Of a DNA stretch of 53,441 nucleotides, positions 8,173 through 43,632 are shown in pieces. A model generated the notes under the pieces. The model had not been told where the DNA came from. It did not search any database and saw only the letters and a list, made by a program, of their open reading frames with translations. The position numbers and the translations under genes were made by a program. Source of the DNA: Halopiger djelfimassiliensis (GTDB lineage Archaea; Halobacteriota; Halobacteria; Halobacteriales; Natrialbaceae); the NCBI RefSeq assembly GCF_000455365.1, contig NZ_HG315684.1:94920-148360 (forward strand). The letters run 5' to 3'. The first letter of the stretch is position 1. Every line of letters begins with the position of its first letter.

Positions 8173-9551
8173 CGGATCGGTCGCTTCTCTCGCGAGTCCA
8201 AGCGGGGATCTCCCGGAACCGACTTCGGATCGCGTTCGTCGCCGTTCTCCTTCTGTCGGCAGCCGCGCTCGCGGCCGCGGCGTCGGACAGTCTGTCGACG
8301 GCCTCGGAGGACGAGCTTCCGAACGCACCCGAAACGGACAATCACACGGTCATCACTGAATCGGGACGCGTGGGAACGATCACCGCGTACGCACCCGACG
8401 GCGAGGTACTGTACTACAATAACACGCGAACGAAGTACTTCGATGTCGATCCCGTCGAAGCCGATCCACTGACAGTCGAGTACGCCGCGACGGATACGAT
8501 TCACTCCGAAGGACCGACGTGTAGCGACCCGCCGTGCGCGAGAAACGTTCTCGAGCGCGCCGATCTCGAGACCGGCGAGGTCGAGGTGCTGTACGACCGC
8601 TACGACTACAAGGAACACGCCGGCGAGTGGCACGACGCGGATCGAATCAACGAATCGCACGTGCTGATCGCCGATATCGTCGCCGACCAGGTATTCATCG
8701 TGAATACCGAGACGGAAATCGTCGAGTGGTTGTGGGACGCCCAGAGTGACTTCCCGGTCGAGGGCGGCGGCCCGTATCCGGACGACTGGGCCCACATCAA
8801 CGATGTCGAGTACATCGAGGAAGGCACCCACGACGGACACGTGATGGTCAGCCTCCGGAATCAGGATCAGGTGGTTTTCATCGACCCTGACGAGGGACTA
8901 CTCGAGGAGTGGACACTCGGCACCGAGGACGACTACGACGTCATGTACGAACAGCACAACCCGGATTACGTCCCCGAGTCACGGGGCGGCCCGGCGGTCG
9001 TCGTCTCCGATTCCGAGAACGGCCGCGTCGAGGAGTTCCAGCGCGAGGACGGCGAGTGGACCCGAAGTTGGGAGTGGGCGGACGACAGACTGCAGTGGCC
9101 CCGCGACGCCGATCGCCTTCCCAACGGGAACACGCTCGTCACCGACACGCACGGCAACCGCGTTATGGAACTCGACGCGGACGGCGAGATCGTCTGGCAG
9201 GTCGCGTCCACGCTGCCCTACGAGGCCGAGCGACTCGAGACGGGCGACGAGAGCGCAGGGGGACACAGTGCGCAGGAACTGGACCTCGAGTCACGAACGA
9301 CCGACGGTGCTACCGCCGACGGGTTCGACGTTCTTGCGGTGGGGAGCGACGTCGTCGAAGCGGTCGTCCCTAACCGCATCCACAACGGCATTCTCTTCGC
9401 CACCCCGGTGTGGATGGGGCGTCTCGAGTTTGCCGTCGCCGGCGTCGCCCTCCTCACGGGACTCGTTTGGGTCGGGCTCGAGATCAAGTGGCACCTTGGA
9501 GACGCGGGCATCGGATTCCGACTGCCGGTCTACCGTCGCGGCGACGAGTAA
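8169..9551 (+). CDS. Arylsulfotransferase-like (ASST family) membrane-anchored beta-propeller protein
   Basis: 460 residues. An N-terminal membrane segment (about 20-40), then a repeat-rich beta-propeller with motifs such as HINDVEYI, VVSDSENGRVEEFQ and LPNGNTLVTDTHGNRVMELD, which are characteristic of the arylsulfotransferase (ASST) family, and a C-terminal membrane helix (about 417-436) with a short basic tail. ASST enzymes move sulfate between phenolic compounds; in haloarchaea related genes sit with surface-glycan genes, so transfer of sulfate to an exported lipid or glycan is plausible inference. The start is GTG 8169, overlapping the end of a 15-codon frame. A sulfatase-family gene lies 3 kb downstream on the same strand. 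Confidence 0.75.
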   Translation: MTDRSLLSRVQAGISRNRLRIAFVAVLLLSAAALAAAASDSLSTASEDELPNAPETDNHTVITESGRVGTITAYAPDGEVLYYNNTRTKYFDVDPVEADPLTVEYAATDTIHSEGPTCSDPPCARNVLERADLETGEVEVLYDRYDYKEHAGEWHDADRINESHVLIADIVADQVFIVNTETEIVEWLWDAQSDFPVEGGGPYPDDWAHINDVEYIEEGTHDGHVMVSLRNQDQVVFIDPDEGLLEEWTLGTEDDYDVMYEQHNPDYVPESRGGPAVVVSDSENGRVEEFQREDGEWTRSWEWADDRLQWPRDADRLPNGNTLVTDTHGNRVMELDADGEIVWQVASTLPYEAERLETGDESAGGHSAQELDLESRTTDGATADGFDVLAVGSDVVEAVVPNRIHNGILFATPVWMGRLEFAVAGVALLTGLVWVGLEIKWHLGDAGIGFRLPVYRRGDE

Positions 9552-38760: not shown

Positions 38761-39408
38761 CTATCGGCTCCGATACTCGTCGGGTAGCTCGTCGATCAGG
38801 ACGACCGCCTCGCCGTCGATGGCCGTCGCGTCGTCGCTCTCGTTGCGGATGACCGTCTCGAGTCGGTACTGGTCGTTGCCGAGGGACTCGACGACTTCGA
38901 CGCGCGCGGAGACGCGGTCGCCGACGCCGACCGGGCCGGTAAACTCGAGGTCCTGCGAGAGGTAGATCGTGAGTCCGGGCAGTCTGGCGAGGGCGGCGCT
39001 GATGAGCCCCGAGACGAGCGTTCCGTGGACGATGCGTTCGCCGAACCGGGTGTCGGCGGCGAACCCGTCGTCGAGGTGGAGGCGGTTCGTGTCGCCGCTG
39101 ATCTCGGCGAAGGCGCGAACGTCCTCGTCGCTGATCGTCTTTTCGAACGTGACCGTGTCACCGACTTCGATGTCGGACGGGTCGTCGACGGTCCGATCGA
39201 ACCCCCAGTCGAGGTTGGAGTGATCGACGGACGGAATCGACGCGGGCACGGTATCGCCGTTCGAACTGTTCTCGGCGGCAGCGGGGAACATCGCGGAGAC
39301 AGCAGCACGGTTGGCGGCGGTAGCAGTCTGGAGGAAGCTCTGGGTCATCGCCGTCCACGCGTTCGTCATGGCAGCGAGATTAGGTCGCCCAGTATTCTGC
39401 TGTGACAT
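38761..39408 (-). CDS. MaoC-like (R)-specific enoyl-CoA hydratase of the PHA cluster
   Basis: 215 residues. The hot-dog hydratase domain (about 75-210) has the catalytic Asp/His element FAEISGDTNRLHLDDGFA followed by RIVHGTLVSGLISAAL, the MaoC/PhaJ signature. It is preceded by a roughly 70-residue helical extension rich in Ala/Gln/Ser that resembles a phasin-like granule-targeting segment. It would supply (R)-3-hydroxyacyl-CoA from enoyl-CoA for polymer synthesis, and it lies divergent from phaR. ATG 39408 has CATATACC about 30 bases upstream (minus strand, near 39433-39440). Confidence 0.88.
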   Translation of the reverse strand: MSQQNTGRPNLAAMTNAWTAMTQSFLQTATAANRAAVSAMFPAAAENSSNGDTVPASIPSVDHSNLDWGFDRTVDDPSDIEVGDTVTFEKTISDEDVRAFAEISGDTNRLHLDDGFAADTRFGERIVHGTLVSGLISAALARLPGLTIYLSQDLEFTGPVGVGDRVSARVEVVESLGNDQYRLETVIRNESDDATAIDGEAVVLIDELPDEYRSR

Positions 39409-39779
39409 CTATGGGCGGTTTAGTGTGGGGGGTATATGACTTCTTTGGCTGTGCAAACGGGATATTACCGGCTAAATTCGACCGTAATTCCCCATTGGAG
39501 GGGCGACAGGGGCGCTCGAGCGGACGACTTCGATAGGACGGTCGTCGTCACAACCCGGACAGGGCGGTCCCGAGAGCCAGCCGAGTAATCTGCCGCTGTA
39601 CTGGTAGTTCGACGGTCTCATCGCCTGTGGACGTTCCCGAAAGCACGCTGGCCGGCGCTCGACTGGGCGTCGTCTCGCTTTCTACGCCATCCACAACCCG
39701 TGCCTACTCGAACCATCTCATGCCATTAGATGGTATTCAGTGGAAAACCTTATTAGCGACGGGACCGTTGTCACGGGTG
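39409..39779. other. Divergent maoC-phaR regulatory region
   Basis: About 370 bases. No gene is supported. It contains the maoC TATA element near 39436, and for phaR the box CTTATTAG (39749-39756) plus an inverted repeat listed separately. Between about 39480 and 39700 the sequence is GC-rich without a recognised signal. Confidence 0.5.
39713..39733 (+). promoter_or_regulatory. Putative PhaR operator
   Basis: An inverted repeat CCATCT-N9-AGATGG (39713-39718 and 39728-39733) lies 16 bases upstream of the phaR TATA box. In Haloferax mediterranei the AbrB-type PhaR represses its own operon by binding the promoter; this repeat is the best candidate site here, by inference. Confidence 0.4.
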
Positions 39780-40100
39780 ATGACGGACGACTCCGACCGG
39801 TCGCTCTGGTTTCCACCTGCGATGTTCACCGAGCAGTTGCAGGAGGCAGGCGAGCAGGTAGCCGAATCTCAGCAGGAGATGCTGAAACAGTGGTTCCAGG
39901 CGAGCACGATGAATCCGCTCGAGGAGACGTCGGCGTTCGGCCCGATGAACATGGGTACGGCGACGTTCAAGGCCCGCGTTCAGAGCGGCGGTCGGATCAG
40001 CATTCCCGGCCCGGAACGGGACGCCCTCGACATCGAAGAGGGTGATATCGTCCAGACGATCGTCGTCCCCGTCAAACGCAACCGAGAGGACAACTCATGA
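39780..40100 (+). CDS. phaR: PHA regulator PhaR (AbrB-type)
   Basis: 106 residues: an N-terminal helical part (MTDDSDRSLWFPPAMFTEQLQEAGEQ) similar to phasins and a C-terminal SpoVT/AbrB hairpin (ATFKARVQSGGRISIPGPERDALDIEEGDIVQTIVV). In haloarchaea PhaR represses phaRP transcription when granules are absent and leaves DNA by binding granules. ATG 39780 is used because CTTATTAG lies 30 bases upstream; a longer frame starting at 39627 would add an unconserved N-terminus. Its stop overlaps the phaP ATG (ATGA). Confidence 0.88.
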   Translation: MTDDSDRSLWFPPAMFTEQLQEAGEQVAESQQEMLKQWFQASTMNPLEETSAFGPMNMGTATFKARVQSGGRISIPGPERDALDIEEGDIVQTIVVPVKRNREDNS

Positions 40101-40582
40101 ATCAGAACCCGTTTACCGCCGTCTTCGACGCACAGCGCACCGCTCTCGAACAATCCCAGACCCTCACCCACGACGCGCTCGAAGCACAGAAGTCGTCGAT
40201 CGGTGCCATGGCAGACGCCGTCGAGAGTTCGAGCGTCCTCGTCGAGTCCAACGCCGAACTCACCAAGGGCGCGGTCCACGCGTACTTCGACGCCCTCGAG
40301 TCGGCGATGCCCGAGCAGGCCGCCGAGTTCGACGACTTCCGCGCGTTCGTCGACGAGAGCGTCGACTCCGCGACCGAAGCGCAGGCGCAGTCGATCGAAG
40401 CCGTCCACGAGGCGCTCGCGGAATCCGAAGCCGCCTACGACGAGTTCGCCGCAAGCTACGCCGAGGTCGTCGACACCTCCTTCGACGCGTTCCTCGAGGC
40501 CCACGAGCAGGTCGAGGAAAACGTCGCGGCGGTCGCCGAAAACGTCGAGGAGGCGGCCGACGAAATGGACGTCCCGGCGTAG
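40097..40582 (+). CDS. phaP: Phasin PhaP
   Basis: 161 residues, almost entirely helical and very acidic with few hydrophobic stretches, as in haloarchaeal PhaP, which coats polyhydroxyalkanoate granules. Long heptad-like segments (ALEQSQTLTHDALEAQKSSI, VHEALAESEAAYDEFAASYAE, VEENVAAVAENVEEAADE) suggest coiled coil. It overlaps phaR by four bases and precedes phaE by 43 bases. No enzyme motif. Family assignment is based on composition, order in the cluster and length. Confidence 0.85.
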   Translation: MNQNPFTAVFDAQRTALEQSQTLTHDALEAQKSSIGAMADAVESSSVLVESNAELTKGAVHAYFDALESAMPEQAAEFDDFRAFVDESVDSATEAQAQSIEAVHEALAESEAAYDEFAASYAEVVDTSFDAFLEAHEQVEENVAAVAENVEEAADEMDVPA

Positions 40583-40625: not shown

Positions 40626-41177
40626 ATGTCTGACTCACAGCAGCCACAGGCACAACAGTGGAACGAGTTCGTCGAACAGTGGAACGAACAGTTCCTCGAG
40701 GCCCTCGAGGAAAACATGGAGGCACAGGCGGAGTTCGTCGAAAGCTGGTCGGAAACCGTCGGCGAGGTCAGCGAGGAACACGAGATCTCCGACGGCGTCG
40801 AGGGCTACGCTCGGGCCTACGAGACGTGGATGAACGCCTCACAGCAGATGGTCGAGCGGATGAACGACGCCCTCGAAGGCGAGGACGTCGACGTCGAGGA
40901 GTTCCGGGATATCTGGCTCAACACGGCCAACGAGGCGTTCAAGGAGGTCATGTCGACGACCGCGTTCGCCCGGATGACCGGCGAAACCGTCGGTGACATC
41001 CTCGAACTCCAGCAGCAGGCCGAAGAATCGTCCCAGGAGACGCTGCGGACGCTCGGGTTCGCCACCGAGGCGGACATCGTCGAGGTCGGCGACCGACTCG
41101 TCGAACTCGAGCGCCGGCAACACGCCGTCGAACGAAAACTCGACCGCGTCCTCGAGCACCTCGAAGACGAACCATGA
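40626..41177 (+). CDS. phaE: PHA synthase subunit PhaE
   Basis: 183 residues from ATG 40626. A helical, Gln/Glu-rich N-terminus ([20 protein letters not shown]) precedes the typical haloarchaeal PhaE core with [45 protein letters not shown] and [21 protein letters not shown]. PhaE is the smaller, regulatory subunit of the class III synthase and is required for PhaC activity. Its stop overlaps the phaC start by four bases (ATGA), the coupling typical of a two-subunit enzyme. Confidence 0.9.
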
Positions 41178-42757
41178 ACTACCCGTACGCCACCGCACTG
41201 GACATCCAGCGACAGGCCTGGGAGGAGGCCGCCGAACTGGCCGAGAAATCCAGGGTCGCTCCCGGCCGCACCGAAACCGTACAGAACATCGAAGTCGGAC
41301 AGACGCCGAGCGAGATCGTCTACGAGGAAAACAAACTCGAACTCCTCCACTACGAGTCCCAGACCGAGGAACAACACGACGTGCCGATCCTCATCGTCTA
41401 CGCGCTGATCAACAAGCCCTACATTCTCGACTTACAGCCCGACCGGTCGGTCGTCCGGACGCTGCTCGAGGCGGGCTTTGACGTCTATCTGATCGACTGG
41501 GGCGAACCCTCGAAGCTGGATCGATCGCTCGGTCTCGACGACTACGTCAACCGGTACATCGACAACTGCGTCGATGTCGTCCGCGAACGTTCCGGGCAGG
41601 ACGAGATCAACGTTCTCGGCTACTGTATGGGCGGAACGAAGTCGGCCATGTACGCCGCGCTCTATCCGGAGAAGGTCAGGAACCTCGGACTGATGGCTGC
41701 CGGCCTCTGTTTCGCCGGCGAGGGCGGCGTGCTCGAACTCTGGGGGGCCGAGGACTACTACGATCCGGAAGCGGTCACCGAGACCTTCGACAACGTCCCG
41801 GCGGAGTTTCTGGATATCGGCTTCGCGTTGATGGATCCCGTCGCCAACAACGTGACGAAGTACGTCCGCTTCTACGACAACGTCGAGGACGAGGACTTCG
41901 TCGAGAACTTCGCCCGGATGGAACGCTGGCTCGACGAGGGCATCGACGTCGCCGGCAAGGCCTACGAGGAGTTCATCCGGGACATCTACCAGGAGAACAA
42001 GCTCTACAACAACGAACTCGAGCTAGGCGGTGAGCGCGTCGATCTCTCGAACATCGATATGCCCGTCCTCCAGATCGTCGCGGAGTACGACCACCTCATC
42101 CCGCCGGGGGCGTCCAAGCCGTTCAACGACGTGATCGCGTCGGATGACACCGAGGTCATGGAGTTCCCGACGGGACACATCGGCATGTCGGTCTCCTCGC
42201 GGAGCCACGACGAACTCTGGCCCGACGTCTGTGAGTGGTTCGAAGAGCGATCGATCGTCGAGGAGGCGGCCGAAGCGGCCGAGCCGGAAACGCCCGAACC
42301 CAAAGAAGCCGACGCCGCGCTCGCCGAAGACGTCGCCGGCGACGAAACCGGCCCCGATGATCTCGCCGACGGCGGGGCGGCCGCCGAGACCGGAACCGAC
42401 GCCGGCAACGACCTCGACGCCGAAACGAGCGACCTCCACGGCGAAGATCGGTCCGACGAAGAGATCGTCGAGCGCGGCGAGGACAACGTCCGGGAGGAAC
42501 CCGCGGAGCCGGGCGAGATGACCGTCGACGAGGAGGTCGTCGAGGAAGTCACCGACGAGGACGTCACGGCCGACTCCGAGGCCGACGACTTCACCGAACT
42601 GAACGGCGTCGGTCGAGCCTACGCTGACGACCTCGCCGAAGCCGGTATCGAGACGTTCGACCAGCTTGCAACGGCCGACGCCGCGGAACTGGCGGCCGAG
42701 ACGGGCATCGCACCGAGCCGAATCGAAGATTGGATCGAACAGGCTCGAGAACGCTGA
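41174..42757 (+). CDS. phaC: Class III PHA synthase PhaC with C-terminal HhH domain
   Basis: Polymerises 3-hydroxyacyl-CoA. 527 residues. An alpha/beta-hydrolase core with lipase-like box GYCMGG (Cys151 nucleophile), Asp306 (AEYDHL) and His335 (TGHIG) is followed by a roughly 105-residue acidic linker and a terminal helix-hairpin-helix-like domain (about 471-527; [20 protein letters not shown] and [14 protein letters not shown]). Haloarchaeal PhaC is usually somewhat shorter, and this HhH tail resembles domains in DNA-binding or ring proteins; its purpose is unknown. PhaE lies directly upstream, and the phaB gene follows 131 bases later with its own TATA box. Confidence 0.93.
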
Positions 42758-42888: not shown

Positions 42889-43632
42889 ATGTCCATGGAT
42901 GGACGCACATGCGTCATCACCGGCTCGGCACGGGGAATCGGTCGCGGCATCGCCGAATACCTCGGGCAAGAGGGCGCGCACGTCGTAGTCAACTACCGGT
43001 CGTCGGAAGGGCCGGCACACGAGGCGGTCGAGGCGATCGAAGACGCGGGCGGGCAGGCCGTGACGGCTCAGGCCGACGTCACCGACCGCGAGGACGTCGA
43101 ACACATGCGAGAGGTCTGCCACGAGGCGTTCGGGCCGGCCGACGTGCTGGTAAACAACGCCGGCATCACCGCCGACCAGCAGTTCACCGAGATGACCCGC
43201 GAAGACTGGGATCGGGTCATGGACGTCAATCTCGGCGGCATGTTCAACTGTACGCAGGAGTTCTACGACGACATCTGGAACGCCGAGGAAGGACGGCTCA
43301 TCAACATCTCGAGCGTCGTCGGCAAACAGGGCAACTTCGGGCAGGCCAACTACGCCGCCGCGAAAAGCGGCATGTTCGGCTTTACCCGCACCATCGCGCT
43401 CGAACTCGCACAGGGCGGTTCGACGGCCAACTGTGTTGCACCCGGTTTTACACGGACGGACATGCTCGAGAGCGTCCCGGAAACGGTGCTCGATCGGATC
43501 GTCTCGGGCATCCCGCTCGAGCGACTGGCCGAAGTCGAGGACATCGCGGCGGTGGTGCGGTTCCTCGCCAGCCCCGAATCGTCGTACGTGACCGGCGAAG
43601 TGATCGACGTCAACGGCGGGATGGACCTTTAG
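42889..43632 (+). CDS. phaB: Acetoacetyl-CoA reductase PhaB (FabG-like SDR)
   Basis: Reduces acetoacetyl-CoA to (R)-3-hydroxybutyryl-CoA with NAD(P)H, feeding PhaC. 247 residues with the complete SDR set: cofactor motif TGSARGIGRG (11-20), NNAG, catalytic Ser (INISS), YAAAK (Tyr and Lys intact), and C-terminal PGFTRTDM. Contrast with the degenerate SDR at 22.3 kb. ATG 42889 has TTATTTA about 32 bases upstream (42856-42862), so it has its own promoter and a leaderless mRNA. Confidence 0.9.
   Translation: MSMDGRTCVITGSARGIGRGIAEYLGQEGAHVVVNYRSSEGPAHEAVEAIEDAGGQAVTAQADVTDREDVEHMREVCHEAFGPADVLVNNAGITADQQFTEMTREDWDRVMDVNLGGMFNCTQEFYDDIWNAEEGRLINISSVVGKQGNFGQANYAAAKSGMFGFTRTIALELAQGGSTANCVAPGFTRTDMLESVPETVLDRIVSGIPLERLAEVEDIAAVVRFLASPESSYVTGEVIDVNGGMDL

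Follow-up and report, generated by a model that had tools for sequence, protein, structure and literature searches.

The window analyzed here, a stretch of 53,441 nucleotides from Halopiger djelfimassiliensis, encodes a PHA synthase whose polypeptide extends well beyond its catalytic domain into an acidic tail with a helix-hairpin-helix (HhH) end, and the question that this locus raises is what such a tail contacts and whether it could tie PHA granules to the nucleoid. The reading frame at 41174–42757 is intact and comprises 527 residues. On the evidence of its profile match, its catalytic triad, and the adjoining phaE, the product is assigned as the class III PHA synthase subunit PhaC, with a predicted activity. 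The phaE gene lies directly upstream, its end overlapping the start of phaC by 4 bases, and the two belong to a cluster in which the order MaoC-phaR-phaP-phaE-phaC is identical to that in Haloferax larsenii. The cluster has the following content.

38761–39408, minus strand: MaoC-type dehydratase, possible phaJ (PF01575, 77.4 bits)
39717–40100, plus strand: probable phaR, AbrB-like regulator (TIGR01439, 21.3 bits, under the cut-off; gene order; exact start codon uncertain)
40097–40582, plus strand: phaP-type phasin (groups with PhaPs upstream of phaE in related clusters; placed as in Haloferax larsenii)
40629–41177, plus strand: phaE, small haloarchaeal-type synthase subunit (PF09712, 27.4 bits, cut-off 25.7; TIGR01834, 36.3 bits, under its cut-off)
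41174–42757, plus strand: phaC, class III PHA synthase catalytic subunit, 527 residues (TIGR01836, 421.8 bits; PDB PhaC catalytic domains, E down to 5e-30)
42889–43632, plus strand: SDR reductase, FabG/PhaB type (TIGR01830, 292.2 bits, and TIGR01829, 256.9 bits, both just under the cut-off)

The match to TIGR01836, the class III PhaC profile with a cut-off of 365.3 bits, spans residues 17–359 and stops there, and the triad residues Cys151, Asp306, and His335 are present and invariant in the aligned homologues. PhaC comprises three contiguous parts.

41174–42253, plus strand: residues 1–360, catalytic part with the Cys151/Asp306/His335 triad and an N-terminal helix (residues 4–38)
42254–42583, plus strand: residues 361–470, acidic disordered linker (39% Asp plus Glu, net charge −39, pLDDT mostly below 50)
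42584–42754, plus strand: residues 471–527, C-terminal HhH domain (HHH_5) with a GxG hairpin at 478–480, Tyr483, Arg516, and the invariant Trp520

The earlier note had placed the end of the catalytic domain near residue 365 and the HhH at 471–527, which is right to within a few residues, and the long acidic tail that it described is borne out by the composition of the linker. In the AlphaFold2 model of full-length PhaC, the pLDDT is below 50 across most of residues 379–467, as expected of predicted disorder. The tail as a whole (residues 361–527) has a net charge of −50 and contains a single lysine. The linker ranges from 5 to 150 residues in length across 169 PhaCs, and its columns have a mean gap of 45% in the homologue alignment. 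Two PhaC3-type orphan synthases have another, longer linker that is not low-complexity in look, with the HhH end still present.

L266, 3968–5665: PhaC3-type orphan synthase of Haloferax mediterranei pHME505
L202, 3953–5605: PhaC3-type orphan synthase

A low-complexity acidic linker could give rise to a spurious reading of an HhH at its end, but the Pfam HHH_5 model (PF14520) matches residues 472–526 at 44.9 bits, where the cut-off is 27 (E 1.7e-11), the domain folded alone by AlphaFold2 has a pLDDT of 95.3 with four main helices (about 90–97 in the full-length model), and HHH_5 is matched in 68 of 68 diverse PhaC homologues (E ≤ 0.001), far above chance. Because of these three results, a chance match or a mis-annotated low-complexity tail is refuted and has practically no probability. 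The HhH-like end was thus correctly recognized in the earlier note, and the structure prediction that it proposed for residues 471–527 gives a confident all-helical HhH fold. The domain has a net charge of −11 and no lysine; Gly478, Gly480, Leu487, and Trp520 are invariant in the 68 homologues, and the surface positions vary widely. A Foldseek comparison with the PDB placed RadA/Rad51 N-domains at the top (TM about 0.85), with NusA AR2 also high (TM about 0.8), the E-values being modest (best 0.026) for a query of only 57 residues. These domains have the fold in common with the PhaC HhH, but their parent proteins and functions differ. A profile search of PDB sequences with the HhH returned haloarchaeal eL32, Rad51/RadA, DNA polymerase IV/beta, and NusA.

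By analogy with bacterial granule proteins, the reading slightly preferred here, quite possible if short of probable, is that the PhaC HhH is a tether that contacts DNA. The catalytic core would synthesize polymer at the granule surface, and the flexible acidic arm would hold out toward the cytoplasm the small folded HhH, presumably exposed, an interaction module that has become fixed in this lineage. In the manner of PhaH, the HhH might then make weak, sequence-independent contacts with nucleoid DNA, by which granules would be spread and kept apart. The HhH of Haloferax mediterranei PhaC and the nucleoid idea were published in 2025 by analogy with Caulobacter PhaH (PMC12028471), so the tail and the proposed tether are already known, and the window provides one more example. 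The literature searched contained no experiments on the PhaC HhH itself.

The architecture of PhaC, with its disordered linker and folded HhH, is observed in the present analysis to be near-universal. PhaC is present in 222 of the 391 class genomes sampled, and the HhH tail is found in 169 of 175 PhaC-type frames at all loci examined and in all 102 complete PhaCs with an adjoining phaE. The survey of haloarchaeal C termini recommended in the earlier note thus reveals that the HhH-tailed PhaC is the ordinary haloarchaeal form of the class III synthase and is not peculiar to the Halopiger djelfimassiliensis genome. The PhaCs of Haloferax mediterranei and other haloarchaea are of the same catalytic class (class III PhaEC), and only the length and sequence of the linker vary. 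Of the six frames that lack the HhH, one is truncated at the edge of its contig and another is bacterial. The remaining four are from haloarchaea (loci L062, L203, L267, and L268); three of these have no adjoining phaE, the fourth having too little upstream sequence to tell. Among the first 90 PhaCs read, the only one without a tail is a second copy in its genome. The retention of HHH_5 in 68 of 68 and 169 of 175 PhaCs argues for the tether, and the preservation of the HhH fold while the linker is hypervariable is the pattern expected of one.

A strong rival, itself a reasonable possibility, is that the HhH binds protein, the candidate partners being PhaE, PhaP, a second PhaC molecule, and the phasin-HhH protein described below, and is required for assembly or activation of the synthase without itself contacting DNA directly. 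It is favored by the retention of the HhH in every complete PhaC with an adjoining phaE, by the acidic surface of the domain, and by NusA AR2, which has the same fold and binds protein (PDB 6ib8, a complex with SuhB). The long C-terminal extension of PhaC is also described, in earlier work cited by two papers (PMC6631277; PMC2939530), as indispensable for PHBV synthesis in vivo, which counts against the tether because pure positioning would not need it. The surface positions of the HhH are, however, highly variable, unlike those of a tight co-evolved interface, and seven PhaC copies without a neighboring phaE retain the HhH, although a PhaE encoded elsewhere might serve them. These seven copies, together with a Sinorhizobium class III cluster in which a short PhaC (about 368 residues) accompanies a small PhaE, led to the rejection of an obligatory association between the HhH and an adjoining phaE.

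Contact of the tether with DNA is also favored by its nearest folds, which include the RadA/Rad51 N-domains, and its charge bears on the same point. The PhaC HhH has a mean of 2.7 Lys plus Arg residues as compared with 5.7 in the TopA HhH of haloarchaea, and its mean net charge is −9.7. In TopA, lysine occupies hairpin positions; the PhaC domain lacks the conserved basic residues round the hairpin by which DNA-binding HhH domains are recognized. Basic residues are just as scarce in the RadA HhH, and the low Lys plus Arg content is therefore not decisive against DNA contact. The earlier note had compared the tail to PhaM-like proteins of bacteria. PhaM of Ralstonia eutropha is likewise proposed to link synthase, granule, and nucleoid, and its contact with DNA is made by a tail that is basic, rich in lysine, and histone-like (PMC9049629). 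PhaM is a separate protein, whereas the haloarchaeal tail is fused to PhaC, acidic, and nearly lysine-free. With one lysine and a net charge of −50 in residues 361–527, a PhaM-like basic tail was rejected on composition and the comparison is a poor fit; a PhaM-type mechanism is not supported because the tail is extremely acidic and lacks basic hairpin residues of the TopA type.

PhaH of Caulobacter crescentus is the closer analogue. The protein associates with granules, and its C-terminal HhH reportedly binds DNA and positions the granules (PMC13052382). PhaH is a phasin, whereas the carrier of the haloarchaeal HhH considered here is the synthase, and orthology of PhaC with PhaH was rejected since the NF045508 profile, whose cut-off is 250 bits, aligns with the HhH region of PhaC at only about 21–23 bits (21.4–22.6). 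The best two matches of the PhaH profile genome-wide, both weak, are PhaC and a phasin-HhH protein, and they are in line with the tether. The latter is among the proteins read from an HhH search of the genome that gave 13 places at E ≤ 1, the others including RadA, TopA, eL32, and a small acidic protein.

L104 (contig 3, outside the window), 8399–9373, minus strand: phasin-HhH protein, 324 residues, with two PhaP-type units and a C-terminal HhH

The two units match a profile of 47 pha-cluster PhaPs with 110 bits, the next unrelated frame scoring 17 bits, and no shuffled copies were found among the top matches of this search. The HhH that follows scores 42.2 bits and is 49% identical to that of PhaC. 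Judged from its sequence, the protein is probably a phasin of haloarchaea laid out like PhaH, and it is the one new lead of the analysis. Relatives occur in 31 of the 391 class genomes, and all 31 also encode PhaC. Fisher tests of this co-occurrence give p = 0.005 for genomes of the family and 0.001 for those outside, with the effect of relatedness not fully removed. A phasin-HhH fusion in the same genome, from a family confined to PhaC-positive genomes, suggests a role for the HhH at the granule.

A motif, P..(..)(F/L/I/M)(D/E).QR, is located near the N termini of PhaC, PhaP, and the phasin-HhH protein (41174–41290 and 40097–40200 in the window) and was found in 107 of 174 PhaCs and 19 of 19 phasin-HhH proteins. 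Despite the common motif, homology of the PhaC N-terminal helix to phasins is not claimed, the score with the PhaP profile being only 8.9 bits.

The small acidic protein (about 214 residues, L105/L273, on another contig) has an N-terminal LEKLKSLLGLDD-like helix and a C-terminal HhH that is 55% identical to that of PhaC, and it is encoded in 355 of the 391 class genomes irrespective of PHA. The tail of PhaC might similarly be a generic haloarchaeal module of acidic linker and HhH that helps the protein to fold or stay soluble at high salt and does nothing particular to granules, a reading that would accommodate this distribution as well as the HHH_5-type matches in models of the unrelated L21, S2, and NuoE and the HhH domains in eL32, RadA, and TopA of the same genome. 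It is improbable, given that the HhH is near-universally kept in PhaC, that a second, phasin-based granule protein bears the same module, and that tail-less paralogues exist, from which it follows that the core can persist without the tail.

What the survey adds to the published tether idea is scope: the HhH is near-constant among the PhaCs of haloarchaea, and the same tail is also borne by a phasin that accompanies PhaC. The positioning of archaeal PHA granules thereby becomes directly testable by a short deletion. It is rather unlikely, but conceivable, that haloarchaea have a synthase with an inbuilt nucleoid tether, joined in some lineages by a second tether in the tandem phasin-HhH protein, and that an acidic HhH contacts DNA at molar KCl. 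If so, the granule tether borne by the synthase would be an archaeal counterpart of PhaH, PhaM, and PhaF in bacteria.
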